Part shown: piece after piece, positions 50,884 through 64,000 of the stretch | How the letters are laid out: each line of letters starts with the position of its first letter | Numbering within the stretch: position 1 is the first letter of the stretch | DNA from: Lachnospiraceae bacterium | GTDB lineage: Bacteria; Bacillota; Clostridia; Lachnospirales; Lachnospiraceae | DNA length: 64,000 nt | Direction of reading: 5' to 3' | NCBI GenBank assembly: GCA_014804785.1 | Contig: JAAUZD010000023.1 | Coordinates: forward strand, 266,291 to 330,290 | Program-made: the position numbers and the translations under genes | Notes under the pieces: model-generated | The model's database searches: none | Seen by the model: the letters and a program-made list of their open reading frames with translations, nothing else | What the model was told of the DNA's origin: nothing

Positions 50884-52338
50884 TTACCTCCAAATTTCCC
50901 CCAGGTAATAAAAGCCATGACATTCCTTTAAATATACCGGTACAATCTGTCCAATCAGACTTTTGTCCCCCTTGAAATGCACGATTGTATTGTTGGACAA
51001 TCTGCCCGTCATAAGACTTTCGTCCTGTTCATTGATTTCTTCCACAAGCGCATCCAATACCTGTCCTTCAAGCCTGCTAACTCTTTCCCTTGCCGTATCC
51101 TGCACTACTTTTAGAAGTCTGTCAAACCCTTCCTTCACGACTGCCTCAGGTACCTGGTTTTCCATGGCTGCAGCAGGGGTTCCTGTCCGTTTGGAATAAA
51201 TAAAGGTAAATGCGTTGTCATACTGTACTCTTCTGATTACATCTATGGTCTCATCCACATCACAAGGCTCTTCACCTGGAAATCCCACGATAATATCGGT
51301 TGTGATTGCAATATCCGGTATTTCTTTTCTGATTTTTTCGGCAAGCGCCAGATATTGTTCCTTGGTATAATGCCTGTTCATGGCATTTAAGATCCTGGTG
51401 GATCCTGACTGAAGCGGCAGATGAAGATGTCTGCATATTTTTTTTGATTCCTTCATCACTTGAATCAGCTCATCCGACAAATCTTTGGGATGAGATGTCA
51501 TAAAACGAATCCGCTGCAAACCTTCGATTTTCTCTACTTCCCTAAGAAGCTGCGCGAAGGTCATGGGATGCTCTAAATTCTTTCCATAAGAATTCACATT
51601 TTGTCCCAGAAGCATGACTTCCACCACGCCGTCAGCTACCAGCGATTCTATTTCATGAAGAATATCTTCAGGATTACGACTCCTCTCCCGCCCTCTTACA
51701 TAAGGCACAATGCAATAACTGCAGAAATTATTGCAACCAAACATAATATTGATTCCTGATTTAAAAGAATATTTCCGTTCAACCGGAAGATCCTCCACAA
51801 TCTGATCTGTATCTTCCCAGATATCCACCACCATGCTGTCTGTCTCAAACATATTTACCAGCAATTCGGCAAACTTGTAAATATTGTGTGTGCCGAAAAT
51901 CAAATCAACAAAGCGATAGCTTTGACGGATTTTCTCTATTACAGAGGGTTCCTGCATCATGCACCCACACAGAGCAATCTTCATGTGTGGATTTTTCTTT
52001 TTCAGGCTATTTAAGTGCCCAAGTCGTCCGTAGACCCTCTGATTGGCATTGTCCCTGACGGTACAGGTGTTATAAATAACAAAATCCGCATTTTCATCTT
52101 CTGTCAGTTCATATCCTACCTTCTCAAGTATTCCTGCAAGTTTTTCAGAATCTCTGGCATTCATTTGACACCCGAACGACGTCAAGCTACACGTCAGCGG
52201 GCGGCCCAATTCTTCGGACTTCTTCTTCACAATCTCCCGACACTTCTTCATAAAATAATATTGCCTGTCCGGTTCTTCCGTTGGCGGCTCCTTCGTTAGA
52301 TCCTGCGCTTCTATCCTATCTATATATTTATCATTCAT
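50884..52338 (-). CDS. miaB: tRNA-i6A37 methylthiotransferase
   Basis: The 484-aa radical SAM enzyme thiomethylates i6A37 in tRNA. The N-terminal domain holds the three cluster cysteines (TSFGCQMNARDSEKL, YNTCTVRDNANQ, ALCGCMMQE), the radical SAM domain has CNNFCSYCIVPYVRG, and a TRAM domain ends the protein. It is the first gene of the leftward block and has its own promoter at the prophage border. Confidence 0.97.
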   Translation of the reverse strand: MNDKYIDRIEAQDLTKEPPTEEPDRQYYFMKKCREIVKKKSEELGRPLTCSLTSFGCQMNARDSEKLAGILEKVGYELTEDENADFVIYNTCTVRDNANQRVYGRLGHLNSLKKKNPHMKIALCGCMMQEPSVIEKIRQSYRFVDLIFGTHNIYKFAELLVNMFETDSMVVDIWEDTDQIVEDLPVERKYSFKSGINIMFGCNNFCSYCIVPYVRGRERSRNPEDILHEIESLVADGVVEVMLLGQNVNSYGKNLEHPMTFAQLLREVEKIEGLQRIRFMTSHPKDLSDELIQVMKESKKICRHLHLPLQSGSTRILNAMNRHYTKEQYLALAEKIRKEIPDIAITTDIIVGFPGEEPCDVDETIDVIRRVQYDNAFTFIYSKRTGTPAAAMENQVPEAVVKEGFDRLLKVVQDTARERVSRLEGQVLDALVEEINEQDESLMTGRLSNNTIVHFKGDKSLIGQIVPVYLKECHGFYYLGEIWR

Positions 52339-55462: not shown

Positions 55463-55831
55463 TTACTGTGCCATGATTGCCGATACAATGATCGTTAATT
55501 CTGCGACGCTCTGCAAGGCGTCGGAAAGCTGCGCCCGAAGGTTTTTGTTTTCTGCTTCCGCTTCCGTCATTTCACGAAGCGCGAACCGGGTTCCGCCTTC
55601 ATACTCATACTTGCAGATCAAGATCATGTTTTCGTATGCTTCGCCGTCGATTTCAACCTTTGAAATATTTTCCGGGGAAAGAACGCTGTCCGCGATCGGC
55701 TCCGCGCTTTCGTATGTGCTGCCGTTAAGAAGTACGATCAATTCTGTACCGTCTTTCAGCCGGATCTTGACGTTTTGGGAAGTTGTACTGTTTGTATTCT
55801 CCCCTGAATTTGCTGTGCTTTTCTTTGCCAT
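55463..55831 (-). CDS. Small phage protein overlapping the RT gene
   Basis: The 122-aa protein has a Ser/Thr/Asn-rich N-terminus, a central beta-rich part (VKIRLKDGTELIVLLNG, KVEIDGEAYENMILICKYE) and a C-terminal helix. Similar proteins follow tail fibre genes in Clostridia phages, function unknown. ATG 55831 with AAAGGAG lies inside the RT gene, and 107 bp are read in two frames. Confidence 0.78.
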   Translation of the reverse strand: MAKKSTANSGENTNSTTSQNVKIRLKDGTELIVLLNGSTYESAEPIADSVLSPENISKVEIDGEAYENMILICKYEYEGGTRFALREMTEAEAENKNLRAQLSDALQSVAELTIIVSAIMAQ

Positions 55832-56900
55832 TGTTTTTATAACTCCTTTCTTTGTCATTTTTGAATAGCTGATTGAAAAGTTTATCCATACTTCGCATAG
55901 TGCGGTATGAATTAAAATAACTGATATAGCCTTTCCATGAATTATACGCCTGCTGAACGTCCGCGAAGGTGATCTTTCCTTCGTCTAATTTCTTTTTCAG
56001 CTTTTTCAGCTTCCGGCGCTCTCTCACAATGCTATTGTGATCCGGGCGCATGATAACGCGGCCCGTGTCCGTCAGGTGAATTTTCCCTTTTAAGAATTTG
56101 AATTCTTCGGAAAGCTTCACAATCTTTGTTTTACGTTCGTTTAATTCGATCCCAATTTCCGCATACATTCCCCGGATTGTTTCAAGGCAGCTTTGCAAAT
56201 ATTCCCGGTCTTCATGGATCAAATAAAAATCGTCCATATATCGGCCGTAACCTTTTATTTTAAGCTGTTCTTTTATGAAGTGGTCTATCCGGTTCGGATA
56301 AAATACGGCTGTCATTTGTGAAACCTGCGAACCAAGCCCCAAAGACTGATCCCCGAAAGCGTCTATGAAGTCCATTGTCAAATTGACAATATCGGGATCA
56401 TACCCGAATATGCGCGAATATTCTTCAAAGATCGGCCCGTGTTGTATGGAATCGAAATAACCGTGAAGATCTGCTGTCAGGATATACCCGTTATTTGAAC
56501 CATGCTTCCGAAAATAGCGCCACAAGTGGACTTTTAAGCGGTTCAGCGCGAACCGGGTTCCCCGTTCTTTCATTGAAGCCGCATTGTCATAAATAAGCTT
56601 CGGCCGAAGGACGGGGACTAAAACCAGATCATTTTCTGCCCGGTGAACAACCCTTTCATTTATGTGTATCGAACGAATTACGCGCCTTTTGCCGCGTTCG
56701 CATATCGGAAAGACGATAAAGCCGTCAGACATTCTTTCGCGCCCTTCAAGACGCTTCTTTGTAAGGCGCACGCGCTCTATTCTGTCCAAATAGTAAGCCT
56801 GTGTCGAATATTTCCACGTCACGCCTTCCATGCACTTCTTTGCGGCTTTCATTAAATTATTAGGATCTGTTATTTCCTGAAATGTCGGTAAATTCTTCAT
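55725..56900 (-). CDS. Reverse transcriptase of a diversity-generating retroelement
   Basis: The 391-aa protein has the reverse transcriptase core: YILTADLHGYFDSIQH (motif A, D144), the DGR-type motif LGSQVSQ (189-195) where group II intron enzymes have QGxxxSP, and the catalytic RYMDDFYLI (YMDD at 221-224). There is no maturase or HNH domain, so it is not a group II intron. It should copy the template repeat 57050-57172 with errors at adenines and, with the accessory protein, feed the variable repeat. The start ATG 56900 has only a weak ribosome site. The last 35 residues are read in the frame overlapping the next gene. Confidence 0.93.
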   Translation of the reverse strand: MKNLPTFQEITDPNNLMKAAKKCMEGVTWKYSTQAYYLDRIERVRLTKKRLEGRERMSDGFIVFPICERGKRRVIRSIHINERVVHRAENDLVLVPVLRPKLIYDNAASMKERGTRFALNRLKVHLWRYFRKHGSNNGYILTADLHGYFDSIQHGPIFEEYSRIFGYDPDIVNLTMDFIDAFGDQSLGLGSQVSQMTAVFYPNRIDHFIKEQLKIKGYGRYMDDFYLIHEDREYLQSCLETIRGMYAEIGIELNERKTKIVKLSEEFKFLKGKIHLTDTGRVIMRPDHNSIVRERRKLKKLKKKLDEGKITFADVQQAYNSWKGYISYFNSYRTMRSMDKLFNQLFKNDKERSYKNNGKEKHSKFRGEYKQYNFPKRQDPAERRYRIDRTS

Positions 56901-57020
56901 ATTTTCATAATTCCGCCCGCTTATAGATCAACATAGTGTAGGACTTAAAAGCACTATTGACCGTCAGGCGAATAATTCCGGCTTGTGCCGTGGTTATACG
57001 TTCCTATCGTTCTATACCGC

Positions 57021-57036
57021 GCGGATCTTTGTCCGC
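57021..57036 (-). repeat. Small hairpin in the TR-RT spacer
   Basis: GCGGA and TCCGC pair over 5 bp with a 6-nt loop, 14 nt downstream of the template repeat in the transcribed sense. The 149-nt spacer between TR and RT (56901-57049) is expected to be part of the template RNA, where structure matters in the Bordetella phage DGR. Confidence 0.4.
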
Positions 57037-57049
57037 ATGAAGACGATAT

Positions 57050-57172
57050 CGGGGCAAGGGCCAAATCGTTGGCGGCGCCGTTGTTGTTGCTGTTGCCGTT
57101 GTTGTTGAAATTGCAAAAGTTCGTCGTGTTCGCCGCCGAAGGGTCAGCCGTCCAAAAGTTGACGCGCCCGGC
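57050..57172 (-). ncRNA. DGR template repeat (TR)
   Basis: This 123-bp non-coding segment is the template of the retroelement. Compared with 57882-58004 it differs at 12 positions, all adenines of the minus strand here (6 A to G, 4 A to C, 2 A to T), while 93 non-adenine positions are identical. Read in the frame of the target it has runs of AAC codons, the signature of a template made for maximal amino acid change. It lies between the accessory gene and RT and belongs to the template RNA. Confidence 0.95.
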
Positions 57173-57204
57173 TAATCAAAATCAACGCATAACCAATAAA
57201 ATTA

Positions 57205-57807
57205 TTATTTCTTCCTTTCTTTCCGCTGCTTTTCTTTCTGCAGGCGGGCTTCTTTCTTTTCCGGGTGCAAGAATTCGTCATAGTCCCGGATCGTTGACTT
57301 CTTCCATTTATACAGATAATTCTTTGTGTTTTCCAACTGTTCAGAATATTCCATATAACGCGATAAGTCTATGTTGAAGAATTCTTCAACGAATAACACT
57401 TCCTGCCGTATTTGCGCGATATTCCCGATCGCGGCGTCTTCCATAAGGATCCGTTTTACATATTCTTCTTTTGTCCTGCATTGAATTTCATTCGCTGCCG
57501 AAATGTTGCTAACAAGATCCGAAGAATACCGGAACAAATTTTCCCGGACTTTTTCTATTATCCATTCTGGATATTCTGTCAGAAGCTTTTGTTTTTCGAC
57601 TTCGTTTTGATAGTTGTCGATCCTTTCAAAAAGCCTTTTCAATTCCGGGTACTTTTCCCGCGCCTGCCTTCCTATCAGGGAATTATATTTTTCACGCTTC
57701 AAGCCAAAATTCCGCATGATTATTTGTGTTACTATGTGCCGCAATTTTACGGCTTCATAAAATGCGTCGAGTTTTGACGCTGTTCTATTCCACGACGGGA
57801 CGGACAT
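57205..57807 (-). CDS. avd: DGR accessory protein, long Avd-like four-helix protein
   Basis: The 200-aa protein lies between the target gene and TR, the place of avd in classical DGRs. It is almost entirely helical and basic, with a core around 14-60 and 112-172 (EYVKRILMEDAAIGNIAQIR, then LENTKNYLYKWKKS, where W168-x2-S recalls the end of Avd helix 4). The C-terminal 18 residues are very Lys/Arg-rich. Bordetella phage Avd is only 128 aa, so this is a longer form with an insertion of about 50 residues. Assignment rests on location and pattern, not a profile match. ATG 57807 follows AAAGGAAG. Confidence 0.75.
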   Translation of the reverse strand: MSVPSWNRTASKLDAFYEAVKLRHIVTQIIMRNFGLKREKYNSLIGRQAREKYPELKRLFERIDNYQNEVEKQKLLTEYPEWIIEKVRENLFRYSSDLVSNISAANEIQCRTKEEYVKRILMEDAAIGNIAQIRQEVLFVEEFFNIDLSRYMEYSEQLENTKNYLYKWKKSTIRDYDEFLHPEKKEARLQKEKQRKERKK

Positions 57808-57830
57808 TTTCTTGCACTTCCTTTCTATCT

Positions 57831-57853
57831 GCGGCGGCGCTGTCGGCCGCCGC
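57831..57853 (-). repeat. GC-rich hairpin downstream of the variable repeat
   Basis: GCGGCGGC and GCCGCCGC form a perfect 8-bp stem with a 7-nt loop, 28 bp past the end of VR and between the target stop and the avd start. DGRs often have a hairpin or cruciform just behind VR that boosts homing. It might otherwise be a simple intergenic RNA stem. Confidence 0.55.
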
Positions 57854-57863
57854 GATTACCAGA

Positions 57864-59000
57864 TTATGAAAGAACGATTAGCGGGGCAAGGGCCAAATCG
57901 CTGGCGGCGCCGTAGGTGTAGCTGCTGCCGTGGCTGGCGAAATCGCAAAAGTTCGTCGTGTTCGCCGCCGAAGGGTCAGCCGTCCAAAAGGCGACGCGCC
58001 CGGCCTTTTTCTTGTTAAAGCCTGCGCCCTTCAAAATGTGCGCGTTTCCGCCCGTGAACAAAGGAAGCTGATTGAAAGCGCCGCCGGAATACTGATCCGC
58101 CCACCCGTTCGATCCGCACAATTCCACGATACCCGGAAGGAAAATTCGCCGGGACGCCCAAGCCCAAGCCCCCTTGTTATTTTCCAGACGCCGGATCGTT
58201 GTCATGTAACCCTGAAGCTTTGAAGAAAATTTCTTCGCTTCCGTTTCAAGGTTTGCGGGCATAAGTGACGCGGCATAGCCCCCGGCGTTCGTGTTTGTCG
58301 AATTAAATTTATAATATGTTTCCAGACAATCACGCGGGCAGCATACAATATGCGGGGCTGTCAATTCCGTATCGCCGCAATGCAAATATGAATTCTTTCC
58401 GGCCACTTCCCACATGATTTTTTCCCCGGAAGAAGTCGTTTCGATAAAATAATCGCCTATTGCGAATTTATCCCACGATCCCGCCTTCACAAGTGCCATA
58501 AGTTCATCAAGGCCCCATTCAATACCGAAATAGCCATATGACGCCATGCTTTCGCGCTTCATCACTTCATAATCTTTCAGAAGATCTTCGTTTTCTTTGA
58601 TAACCTTCGTCAAGTTCTGGTTAATGATGTACGCAAGATAGCCGGAAGCAATCTTCTTTTTCAGATCTTCTTCATATGCCGCCCGCGCTGCTTCGGCGTC
58701 TTCCCCTTCTTCCATTTCCGGGAATTCTGAAATGATATTTTCCTGCGTTGTTCCGGCTTCGATCTTTTTGATCGTGTCCGCCTGCCATTTTTTCAGCTTC
58801 CCAATGATAACGGGAAGCGTGTCATTTTCCCCGATTTCCGGGAATTCTGCTTTACTTTCTGTAATTCCTGCCGCGAATATGCTTTTGCAAAAATCAGAAA
58901 ATACAGCCTGCTTTGTACCTTCGGGCGTTTCTACTACAAGATAGTGTGTCCCTAATATTTCAGGGACGCCCGCAAGGTCACGAACCTTTTTTTGTGCCAT
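57864..59000 (-). CDS. DGR target: variable phage tail protein with C-terminal lectin-like domain
   Basis: The 378-aa protein has a short N-terminal phage-attachment part, an acidic and helical middle (about 60-160), and a C-terminal domain (about 165-378) of the C-type lectin-like / formylglycine-enzyme-like type often used by DGR targets (GAWAWASRRIFLPGIVELCG, GRVAFWTADPS, LAPLIVLS). Its last 40 codons contain the variable repeat. Residues coded by changed codons are A337, D353, A355, S356, H357, S359, Y361, T362, Y363 and S367. It follows the tail fibre gene, so it is probably the receptor-binding tip. Ribosome site AAAGGAG. Confidence 0.9.
   Translation of the reverse strand: MAQKKVRDLAGVPEILGTHYLVVETPEGTKQAVFSDFCKSIFAAGITESKAEFPEIGENDTLPVIIGKLKKWQADTIKKIEAGTTQENIISEFPEMEEGEDAEAARAAYEEDLKKKIASGYLAYIINQNLTKVIKENEDLLKDYEVMKRESMASYGYFGIEWGLDELMALVKAGSWDKFAIGDYFIETTSSGEKIMWEVAGKNSYLHCGDTELTAPHIVCCPRDCLETYYKFNSTNTNAGGYAASLMPANLETEAKKFSSKLQGYMTTIRRLENNKGAWAWASRRIFLPGIVELCGSNGWADQYSGGAFNQLPLFTGGNAHILKGAGFNKKKAGRVAFWTADPSAANTTNFCDFASHGSSYTYGAASDLALAPLIVLS
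57882..58004 (-). repeat. DGR variable repeat (VR) in the 3' end of the tail gene
   Basis: This 123-bp stretch matches the template repeat at 57050-57172 except at 12 template adenines. It starts at the codons before A337 and runs to a few codons before the stop. The 3'-most 19 bp (57882-57900) are identical to TR and include the likely initiation site for mutagenic homing. Confidence 0.95.
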
Positions 59001-61125: not shown

Positions 61126-62001
61126 CTACACCCCCAAATAACGGAAGCGGTATGTTATAGTTACATTCAGATAATCTTCGCCGCCGTCTGCGTCATAAAT
61201 AAAAGTATTCTGTCCGTGTACAAGCTGAATAAATTCGCTTTCTTCGTCCAGATATTCATTGATCTTTTTTGTTTCGCCGCCTGATATTAAGTAAACATTT
61301 TTTTCATTAGTTCCCGTCGTAATTTTTACAGCGTCGCCGGGCTCCATAACAAGCGGAAAGTCTTCTGTCCCGACTTTTATATGAATGTCCTGCTCTACAT
61401 GATACAAAACCGGGTTCTTTACGCTTCCCGTTGCTTCCATGTAGATTTCAATTCCGATATGATCCGCGGCGCTGTCGTTTTCAATGGTCTTTACCAATTC
61501 CGCAACACGGACGCCGAATTCTTCCAGTTCGTCAGTGAATTCATGGACGAATTCAAAACAAGGTTCCCACCCTGCCATTGTGATCGTTGTGTCCTGCAAG
61601 TCCTTAAAGAACGGATCCGGGCAGATAAGGGAAATTGTGACGTTTCGGACGACGCCTTTTTCGTCTATGTCGATTGTTTCCACATAGTAGTCAATTTCCC
61701 TTTTTTCGGCGTTCTCCGTATATGTAAGCGTCCCCGGCGTCTTCGGTTTAAAGCATTTATAAAGAAAGTCCCGGCGGGCCTGATAATCTTCGTCAAACTC
61801 CGCCGTAATGACAATATTTCTTTGCTTCGTCGTGCTTCCCTGATACGTGGATCCGTCCGTCATTGTGTTGGCGGACGTTACCACGTTGTTAGAAACTGAA
61901 TAGGCGCCTTCAAGCGATATTAAAAAGAATTCCGCGTCTTCATCATAGGAAAATTCGATCTGAACGTCGTCTTCATTTATGCAAGTAATTTTCTTTGCCA
62001 T
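61126..62001 (-). CDS. Distal tail protein (Dit, siphovirus tail family)
   Basis: The 291-aa protein has the Dit-type N-terminal ring domain (FFLISLEGAYSVSNN, GSTYQGSTTKQRNIVITAEF, RRDFLYKCFKPKTPGTLTY) and a C-terminal part with the LICPDPFFKDL motif of phage tail proteins. Its start overlaps the tape measure stop (TAATG), and it lies directly after it, as Dit does in siphoviruses. Confidence 0.87.
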   Translation of the reverse strand: MAKKITCINEDDVQIEFSYDEDAEFFLISLEGAYSVSNNVVTSANTMTDGSTYQGSTTKQRNIVITAEFDEDYQARRDFLYKCFKPKTPGTLTYTENAEKREIDYYVETIDIDEKGVVRNVTISLICPDPFFKDLQDTTITMAGWEPCFEFVHEFTDELEEFGVRVAELVKTIENDSAADHIGIEIYMEATGSVKNPVLYHVEQDIHIKVGTEDFPLVMEPGDAVKITTGTNEKNVYLISGGETKKINEYLDEESEFIQLVHGQNTFIYDADGGEDYLNVTITYRFRYLGV

Positions 62002-64000
62002 TATCCGCGCCCCCCTTGTAACTGTAAAACCATATTGCGCGTTGCGTTCCGCGTCTGTCTGGCTGCTTCCGACGGCGAAAGCGCCTTCGGCGAAGTGTAA
62101 CTGTTGTATTGATAAAAGTCCCCGCCCCGGCCGCCTGCTGCCCTGCTGCCGCCTTCTTCTACTGCCTGCGCCGCCCGTTCTGCCGCTTCGTTTATGTAGC
62201 CTTCCACGCGATTATAGAAAGTATCAAGCGGAAGGATCGCTTCGTCGCCTGCTTCTCCGCCGCCCTGCAGCTTCCCGCCGTACATGCCGAAAATTGTCGG
62301 GTTTTTCATAATTCCGCCTAATGCGTTCCATGATATATGCGGTACTGGAATTGATATTTTTGATCCGCCGTCCCCTTCTTTCGATTCAGATCCCCATGTG
62401 ATAGACAATTTCGGAAGCTTGATCGACTTTATACCTTCAACTAATGAATTTATCATTTTCTTTCCGGCGTCCAGTAAAGAAAAGCTGTCGAAAACACTTT
62501 TGATCTTATCTATCACATTCGTTTGGAACCACGAACCAATATTTTTAAATACGCCCGTTACATTGTCATAGGCTGCCTGAAATTTCTGTCTAAACCATTC
62601 CGGGACGCTTGACAATACATTTTTAATATCTGTCCACCGGGCCGAAAACCATTGTCCGATCCCTTTGAAAATATTCGTCACATTTGTATAGGCGTTTTGG
62701 AAGGTAGTCTGAAACCACGAAGCCACCGTCGAAAGCGCGTTCTGTATATCCTGCCACCGGGCCGCGAACCACTGGCCGATCGCTTTGAAGATATTCGTCA
62801 CATTTGTATAGGCATTTTGGAACATGGTTTGAAACCACGTCGCCACGGTTGAAAGTGCGTTCTTAATATCCGTCCACCTAGCCGCGAACCACTGGCCGAT
62901 CTCTTTGAAGATATTCGTCACGTTTGTATAGGCATTTTGGAACATGGTTTGAAACCACGTCGCCACTGCCGAAAGCGCGTTCTGTATATCCTGCCACCGG
63001 GCCGCGAACCACTGGCCGATCCCCTTAAATGTGTTCACTACCGCGTTATATGCTATCAGGAAGATAGAAGCTATAAATTCGCCGATTTCCGAAACGCCTT
63101 GCTTCACCGACTGCCAAGCGTTGACGAAGGTTTGCTTTATCCCTTCCCAAGCTTCGGCCCAAGTAGTGCCGAAAAAACTACAAACAACATTCAGAATATT
63201 TTTCAGTATGTTCACGTAATTTTGAAAAGTATTTTTCACAAACTCCCACGCGGCGCCGAAAATTTCTTTCACGCCCTGCAAACATTGATCCCAATTTCCG
63301 GTAAATATCCCGATAAATACATCAAGGATCCCCGTTATTACGTCTAAGACAAACGAAAAAATATTCGCTATCTGCTGAAAAGCGCCCTCGAAAAGCGGGG
63401 CTAAAAATTTACATAGTCCTTCCCACAATGCCCGGATCACGTCGGTTATATTTTCAAAGTTGAAGCCGATCGCGTTCAGCCTATCGACGATCCCTTGCGC
63501 GAAACTGTTAAATTTTTCTTTTATGCCGTTCCATATTGAAAGAATTTTGTTTCGGAAATCTTCGTTTGTCTGCCATAGGTGAACGAAGGCGGCCACAAGT
63601 GCGGCCACAACCGCGACGACGGCAGCCACGGGCGCGGCTATTGCGCCGAGTGAAGTTCCGGCCGCTGCTGCGTTCGCGGAAGCTGCGGTCAGTTTTGCGC
63701 CAAGCGAAGCAAAAGTCGAAGTCAGCTTCCCCACAAGGGAAACCGCCTTCCCGCCCGTCACCAGAAGCGGCCCGATCGCTGCCACGATTGCCGCTATTTT
63801 TATGATCTGCTGCTTCTGTTCTTCACTTAAACCCTTAAACCATTGTGTAATTTCTTTCACTTTATCAACCATTTTTGTTATCATAGGTTGAACCGTTGTC
63901 AATACGCTTTCTGCAAGTTCTTTTCCGGCTACTTTGACATTATTCAGCGCGATTTTTGATTGATCCCACGGATCTAAAGTCGCGTTGAATGTGTCTTCTA
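62001..64000 (-). CDS. Phage tape measure protein, N-terminal part outside the window
   Basis: The frame is open to the right edge; 665 residues are visible. The part just inside the edge reads DPWDQSKIALNNVKVAGKEL, typical of tape measure proteins. It is followed by hydrophobic helices (IIKIAAIVAAIGPLLVTGG; APVAAVVAVVAALVAAFV), then a long Trp/Phe-rich helical section with five 40-residue repeats (WFAARWQDIQNAL type). The C-terminus contains GGEAGDEAILPLD, a conserved end motif of this class. It sets tail length and may take part in DNA injection. A TTG at 63902 is not the true start. Confidence 0.92.
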   Translation of the reverse strand, partial: EDTFNATLDPWDQSKIALNNVKVAGKELAESVLTTVQPMITKMVDKVKEITQWFKGLSEEQKQQIIKIAAIVAAIGPLLVTGGKAVSLVGKLTSTFASLGAKLTAASANAAAAGTSLGAIAAPVAAVVAVVAALVAAFVHLWQTNEDFRNKILSIWNGIKEKFNSFAQGIVDRLNAIGFNFENITDVIRALWEGLCKFLAPLFEGAFQQIANIFSFVLDVITGILDVFIGIFTGNWDQCLQGVKEIFGAAWEFVKNTFQNYVNILKNILNVVCSFFGTTWAEAWEGIKQTFVNAWQSVKQGVSEIGEFIASIFLIAYNAVVNTFKGIGQWFAARWQDIQNALSAVATWFQTMFQNAYTNVTNIFKEIGQWFAARWTDIKNALSTVATWFQTMFQNAYTNVTNIFKAIGQWFAARWQDIQNALSTVASWFQTTFQNAYTNVTNIFKGIGQWFSARWTDIKNVLSSVPEWFRQKFQAAYDNVTGVFKNIGSWFQTNVIDKIKSVFDSFSLLDAGKKMINSLVEGIKSIKLPKLSITWGSESKEGDGGSKISIPVPHISWNALGGIMKNPTIFGMYGGKLQGGGEAGDEAILPLDTFYNRVEGYINEAAERAAQAVEEGGSRAAGGRGGDFYQYNSYTSPKALSPSEAARQTRNATRNMVLQLQGGRG
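62521..63120 (-). repeat. Five 120-bp tandem repeats inside the tape measure gene
   Basis: Units start at about 62521, 62641, 62761, 62881 and 63001, in exact 120-bp register (for example ACTGGCCGAT at 62771, 62891 and 63011). They code for 40-residue repeats of the type IGQWFAARWxDIxNALSxVA followed by WFQTxFQNAYTNVTNIFK. The middle three are nearly identical, while the outer two (62521 and 62641) have diverged, which shows recent unit duplication. Confidence 0.93.

Follow-up and report, generated by a model that had tools for sequence, protein, structure and literature searches.

A prophage diversity-generating retroelement with one template repeat and two variable repeats in a Lachnospiraceae bacterium

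The retroelement and its two variable repeats

The window analysed here is a 64,000-nucleotide stretch of the genome of a Lachnospiraceae bacterium (G000:C23:266291-330290; coordinates past 64,000 continue the window numbering), and it carries a complete diversity-generating retroelement (DGR) of a prophage at 55725-59000 on the minus strand. The parts of the element are directly observed (Table 1) and follow each other in the order target gene (target 1), Avd-like accessory gene, template repeat (TR) and reverse transcriptase (RT). The first-pass annotation of this DNA had described a complete prophage DGR in the order target, avd, TR and RT, and every part that it listed is present. It had also read the element as acting on a single target, which proved incomplete. 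When the whole genome was searched with the TR, three places matched at E ≤0.001, namely the TR itself, the variable repeat (VR) in target 1 (VR1) and a third place 17 kb past the end of the window. This third match, VR2, belongs to the same prophage, lies about 24 kb from the TR and is part of a second gene, target 2, which is situated in the early region and is probably not a tail protein.

The differences between the TR and the two VRs are restricted to adenines. The TR and VR1 align without gaps over 126 positions, and all 13 substitutions fall at the 32 TR adenines, with none at the 94 other positions (hypergeometric P = 2.0e-9); they comprise 6 A>G, 5 A>C and 2 A>T changes. VR1 corresponds to codons 333-374 at the C terminus of target 1, and the 13 changes hit the first two bases of 11 codons, for which the TR codon is AAC in nine cases and AAT in one. 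In VR2, one AAC codon (3 bases) of the TR is deleted, and the other 112 aligned columns contain 10 substitutions, each of them at a TR adenine (P = 5.3e-7). Because VR2 and VR1 agree in their bases at two of the ten codon positions changed in VR2 (the first AAC and the final ATA), the changes in the two repeats are not all independent.

The RT reading frame contains the YMDD motif and, as LGSQVSQ, the LGxxxSQ motif, both as previously annotated. Its relatives include the RTs of phages with demonstrated TR/VR pairs, and it shares 48% identity with the RT of Roseburia phage Shimadzu. The best relative among solved RTs was 8ub7_A (E = 1.5e-10, residues 8-338), which we take to be the BPP-1 enzyme, followed by a group II maturase (3.9e-9). 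A match to PF13333 was under its cut-off and was given no weight. We also observed that the RT frame, at its 3' end, runs into the start of the next open reading frame (ORF), at 55463-55858; beginning the latter at an internal start that has a good ribosome site would reduce the overlap. The Avd-like ORF matches the PHROG family annotated as Avd protein of DGR weakly and over residues 96-188, and a BLASTP comparison with the Avd of Shimadzu reached only E = 0.03; the assignment to Avd is thus a weak one by sequence and relies mostly on position.

A hairpin follows each VR of the prophage. When stems were scored against 1000 random 70-base windows of the same sequence, the VR1 hairpin was equalled or beaten in 0.6% of the random prophage windows and the VR2 hairpin likewise in 0.6%, against 16% for the TR. 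The VR2 hairpin contains one G-T pair, scores equal to that of VR1 and has a different loop. A cis hairpin is thus present after both VRs and not after the TR, which is the arrangement of the DGR of Bordetella phage BPP-1. We regard it as practically certain that this element is a DGR with two retrohoming targets.

Table 1. Features of the retroelement and its prophage in window coordinates (aa, amino acids)
Feature	Position	Strand	Remarks
Target 1 ORF	57864-59000	minus	378 aa; downstream of tail genes; C-terminal variable region
VR1	57879-58004	minus	in target 1; 13 of 126 positions unlike TR, every one a TR adenine
Hairpin	57831-57853	minus	8 G-C pairs, loop CGACAGC; 3' of VR1 and of the target 1 stop codon
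Avd-like accessory ORF	57205-57807	minus	200 aa; phrog_3206 E 7.6e-4; between target 1 and TR
TR	57047-57172	minus	32 adenines
RT ORF	55725-56900	minus	391 aa; PF00078 E 7.4e-16, phrog_1423 E 4e-77
miaB 11-base core	52160-52170	minus	common to both prophage ends; other copy at 88883-88893 (past window)
Target 2 gene with VR2	81150-82115 (past window; L004:17150-18115)	minus	321 aa; DUF6273

The prophage lies in the 5' coding part of miaB (window 52105-52338; 88879-89001, L005), and this 5' part is present twice, once in a full-length gene (50884-52338) and once as a different second copy (88879-89001). The two copies share the 11-base core listed in Table 1, and these cores would bound a prophage of about 36.7 kb, of which the window covers only the lysis, DGR and tail end. 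At one prophage end a replacement miaB start is fused in frame, while at the other end a different miaB start soon stops. The host miaB thus seems to have received a new start from the phage.

Two-target layout and turnover in relatives

To place the element among its relatives, we searched viral contigs with the RT and obtained 10 loci, 8 at 74-76% identity and 2 at 46%. All three records from this search that were at least 27 kb long (G037, G039 and G041) contain the TR, VR1 and a remote VR2, so the two-target layout is directly observed outside the window. The VR2 changes fall at adenines in 15 of 15, 17 of 17 and 16 of 16 cases, respectively, and the three target 2 proteins are 41-44% identical to that of the window's prophage over their full length. 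Four genomes reached through target 2 (G046-G049) each contain at least three TR-like places, one of them the TR itself. For G046 and G047, both VRs were checked for the adenine pattern, with the remote VR2 kept in G047; G046 carries the same prophage as G037, with 0 differences along the G037 record. The second VR of G048 and all three places of G049 are on separate contigs, and the second VRs of both genomes were left out of the adenine-bias check. In G004, which belongs to the same genus, 11 of 11 changes in the tail target and 16 of 17 in the remote target are at adenines, and the N terminus of the remote target is unrelated to that of the window's prophage.

Six further genomes were found through similarity to target 2. 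Four of them (G199, G001, G029 and G003) have a TR, a near VR and a remote VR; in G194 only a near VR was present in the stretch taken, and G165 has a target-2-like gene and no TR/VR pair on its contig. Two loci stand apart from these layouts. In a metagenomic contig (L015, 3910-4866), a gene of the target 2 type continues at the VR into an end of the target 1 type, beside avd, TR and RT; as this gene ends like target 1, it was rejected as a separate layout with target 2 adjoining the RT and was put down to a VR recombinant or an assembly join. In addition, G048 has a second RT with an adjacent TR-like place (G048:C30:140919-142301), which is possibly a second DGR; G048 and G370 agree in the lengths of contigs C7 and C30 and are probably the same genome.

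The layout was then surveyed in 21 phage records, of which 19 were taken from 60 of the 80 RT-matching phage records, without duplicates and short ones, and Shimadzu and Toutatis were added. The choice was made by hand and was non-random, so the counts are not a rate, and the Toutatis scan covered 50,000 of 54,725 bases. Ten of the 21 have a second VR at a distance of more than 5 kb from the RT: nd12, nd4, Dulem 34, Dulem 37, MT835491, Brigit, Fontainebleau, Lelie, Shimadzu and Toutatis. Fontainebleau showed only the remote VR, and the second VR of Dulem 37 is the weakest of the ten, with 16 of 20 changes at adenines. A repeat pair in MT835569 is readable in either direction and was not counted as a remote VR.

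In all seven cases that could be judged by annotation, the remote target is located among replication, regulatory or methyltransferase genes. It lies between a methyltransferase and Erf in Shimadzu (orf43), directly after an adenine methyltransferase in Dulem 34, between regulators and exonuclease/RecT in Brigit, and between DNA polymerase I and helicase with one gene intervening in Fontainebleau. In nd4 it adjoins a DNA polymerase III subunit gene, in Toutatis it is several genes past cytosine methyltransferases, and in Dulem 37 it has a type I methyltransferase and a gene for restriction alleviation in its vicinity. Annotation left the second targets of MT835491, nd12 and Lelie unplaced, their neighbours being unannotated or hypothetical, and that of Lelie resembles that of Toutatis.

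Hairpins at the 1.3% level or better occur after 9 of 15 VR1, 10 of 16 VR2 and 1 of 16 TR sites, and in several hairpin-type phages both VRs have the same or nearly the same loop. The loops are CGACAGC, CGGTAGC or CGGCAGC in relatives of the window's phage, CTCGT in G004 and GATA in Dulem 37.

Neither the target 2 search nor the exact-TR search of viral contigs found a near-identical copy of the window's phage, and a search of these contigs with the G037-type TR pattern gave three matches, all on contigs already known. Turnover was instead observed directly in three prophages of the same genus and another DGR lineage (G001, G003 and G029), whose TRs differ at 4 of about 124 positions. In the three pairwise comparisons, target 1 differs at 11-13 of 27 TR-adenine sites, at 0 of the 97 remaining VR positions and at 0-3 of 836 positions outside the VR. 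For target 2, the corresponding counts are 13-17 of 28 at adenines, 0-1 of 95 in the rest of the VR and 18-37 of about 500 outside it. The excess of changes at TR adenines between related strains that the first-pass annotation had expected of a DGR is thus found in this trio at both targets. The target 2 genes of Lelie and Toutatis, whose TRs are identical over the 101 positions compared, show a similar pattern (16 of 33 adenine sites, 1 of 68 other VR sites and 12 of 547 other sites). Adenine-specific variation at both VRs has also been described for CP11 and Lagaffe_CP (PMC11792537).

The nature of the two targets

Target 1 gave no match in Pfam, PHROG or NCBIfam, and a profile search against solved structures returned nothing up to E = 1. 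An hhalign comparison matched its residues 232-377 to the DUF6273 region of target 2 with a probability of 99.3, and a C-lectin fold has been described for DUF6273 (PMC10743442). The genes preceding target 1 encode Dit, a Gp37-like tail protein and a virion protein. Because target 1 has no family match, its tail-tip role is one that we infer from gene position, which makes a receptor-binding tail protein probable; the diversified host-binding tail tip proposed earlier is to this extent plausible. Upstream of the tail genes, a long protein contains aromatic-rich repeats of the type IGQWFAARWxDIxNALS (window 62001-63902, minus strand) and is likely the tape-measure protein.

The target 2 frame is open, has a good ribosome site and encodes a DUF6273 domain (E = 1.5e-10), and VR2 lies far from the RT and outside the structural genes. 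A D12 adenine methyltransferase gene is directly downstream, with a MazG-like gene and a Dam-like methyltransferase gene farther on. On the other side there are repressor-like genes and an integrase-like recombinase, the latter assigned by its position and sequence start, with no family search made. In four relatives (G037, G039, G041 and G047), the gene after target 2 starts alike and contains DPPYG, and the two copies tested, those of G041 and G047, match N6_N4_Mtase. None of 16 second targets showed a transmembrane-like stretch in a simple hydropathy scan, in which their best 19-residue mean was at most 1.17, compared with 2.55 and 2.87 in two controls. The second targets of Dulem 34, of Shimadzu and of the Lelie type are short (209-221 aa). 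In nd12 (OR777946.1, 31285-32178), the remote target consists of a DUF3310 domain joined to DUF6273, which is another fusion of a variable domain with a separate one; the DUF3310 motif in this target has also been noted by others (PMC10743442).

To trace the non-variable part of target 2, we searched the N-terminal 60 residues of this type in 397 genomes of the family and found the domain in 6 of them at a threshold of E 1e-4. In the window's genome (G000), in G165, in G370 and in one of the G086 copies, it is part of frames of 303-341 aa, and the same genes have DUF6273-type matches. In contrast, the domain occurs alone, with no DUF6273, in G373 (124 aa), in the second G086 copy (233 aa) and in G097, where four lone copies (L172, L179, L183 and L185) have frames of 80-90 aa, three of them being 80 aa long with equal score. 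The lone domain of G373 is immediately followed by a D12 methyltransferase, as target 2 is in the window's phage. Searches of Pfam and PHROG with the lone forms gave nothing better than E = 0.004, and the G373 form, the only one compared with annotated phages, has no match among them at E 0.01. Because the N-terminal domain occurs elsewhere without the variable domain, we regard target 2 as probably an early protein of the cytoplasm to which a hypervariable domain was added. On the simplest reading of these sequences, a small early protein would have acquired a variable domain open to rewriting by the DGR; alternatively, the genomes with lone domains lost it.

Taken as a whole, these data favour, with reasonable though not full confidence, a temperate tailed-phage DGR that diversifies two different proteins from one template, with target 2 being early and cytoplasmic. 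By analogy with the known family, the RT would copy TR RNA with errors at adenines, and the complementary DNA (cDNA) would take the place of VR1 and of VR2, after each of which there is a hairpin. Target 1 would be diversified as a receptor-binding tail protein. Target 2 would combine a small domain that also exists alone with a variable domain of the C-lectin type, and it would most likely bind variable host molecules in the cell, for example restriction or other defence proteins. The separate parts of this proposal differ in strength: that target 2 is an early, non-virion protein appears probable, while an action against host defence, suggested by its position and domain make-up, is put forward tentatively.

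Several observations weigh against this two-protein proposal. In 11 of the 21 surveyed phages a remote VR was not found (MT835543, ACA1, phiARM81mr, ZX4290, MT835552, Pioen, Roos, MT835569, VP58.5, phiWae15 and ANMV-1). No methyltransferase adjoins the remote target in G004 and G199, as judged from sequence starts, nor in nd4, Brigit, Fontainebleau and Lelie. The VR2 of the window's prophage lacks one TR codon, and the loop of the hairpin after it departs from those of the relatives. In Toutatis, Lelie, nd4, nd12 and Brigit, there is no hairpin at the 1.3% level after either VR; by eye, the two VRs of these phages share a downstream stretch instead. Hairpins located after genes could also be terminators, with which the random-window control is compatible. 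Finally, predicted structure models were poor, with a mean predicted local distance difference test (pLDDT) score of 36.0 for target 1 (A3) and 41.4 for a relative of target 2 (A2).

The main alternative is that both targets are virion proteins, with target 2 serving as an additional receptor-binding or decoration protein whose gene happens to lie in the early region. It would fit the presence of the same DUF6273/C-lectin-type domain in two proteins rewritten from one TR, and the authors who described nd4 and nd12 propose receptor binding for the second target (PMC10743442). The early-type surroundings in the seven judgeable cases and in the window's phage, the existence of the N-terminal domain alone beside a methyltransferase, and the small size of the second targets of Dulem 34, of Shimadzu and of the Lelie type speak against this hypothesis, and we consider it unlikely. 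Still less probable is an ordinary BPP-1-type DGR acting on the tail gene only, with VR2 as a decayed relic here. The missing codon and the diverged hairpin loop of VR2 would agree with decay, but its ten substitutions are all at adenines in an open frame with a good ribosome site, its hairpin scores as well as that of VR1, and second-target VRs turn over in relatives. Although group II intron and retron models match the RT too, far under their cut-offs, the idea that there is no DGR and that an RT of this type lies beside a chance or duplicated repeat is refuted for practical purposes by the adenine specificity of two VRs, and relatives with the same layout and specificity and the Avd-like gene also argue against it.

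Known systems and biological meaning

The DGR of Bordetella phage BPP-1 has the gene order mtd-avd-TR-brt, a C-terminal VR, adenine-specific differences and a hairpin after the VR. The element described here agrees with it in gene order and in these three features. It differs in that the window's phage has a second, remote target in the early region, in that its Avd-like gene is long (200 aa) and weakly related, and in that its target 1 resembles no solved structure in a sequence-profile comparison. Shimadzu (LR596903.1) has, in addition to its related RT, a VR in a tail-fibre gene and a remote VR in orf43, but its second target is only 209 aa long and is without the N-terminal domain found in the window's phage.

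Published reports contain several comparable systems. Of 68 inducible gut prophage species, 13 were reported to carry a DGR (PMC12629997), and most viral targets of three DGR clades were classed as tail proteins (PMC8144416). A meeting report mentions the tail-fibre DGR of Shimadzu (PMC6563222), and two diversified proteins had been reported for this phage according to PMC11792537. Quimbyvirus (PMC8008677) and four species of gut prophage whose second VR is distal (PMC12629997) resemble the present case, by their descriptions, in having one structural target and one distal target among methyltransferase or defence-related genes; Quimbyvirus differs in its Bacteroidetes hosts and its frameshifted RT (PMC8008677). 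Lelie and Toutatis (PMC11792537) and nd4 and nd12 (PMC10743442) also have two DUF6273/C-lectin targets served by one TR, the second of them remote, and nd4 and nd12 are each reported with two DUF6273 targets. Unlike the window's phage, these four are without a hairpin after the VRs, and in nd4 and nd12 the first target is a tentaclin with an N-terminal VR (PMC10743442). Distal second targets near methyltransferases are therefore already published, and the window's element adds one more case. The present analysis contributes the second target of this phage family together with its adenine-only substitutions, the hairpins at both VRs, the recurring layout and the lone N-terminal domain.

The DGRs of phages are usually explained as a means of surface-receptor switching, and here one template matches a tail gene and a gene of the early region. 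As a more speculative extension, which we hold with less confidence than the role of target 2 in counter-defence itself, temperate Clostridia phages may possess an evolvable intracellular binder, in which a DGR-diversified domain of the C-lectin type is carried on small early proteins often encoded beside methyltransferases. Each lineage would then tune, from one template RNA, both surface binding and the binding and neutralising of changing host defence proteins in the cell. Because the target 1 genes of G001, G003 and G029 are nearly identical outside the VR, these three prophages offer a ready comparison. The lone and extended forms of the N-terminal domain constitute a natural before-and-after pair and provide a testable case for the hypermutation of an intracellular protein.

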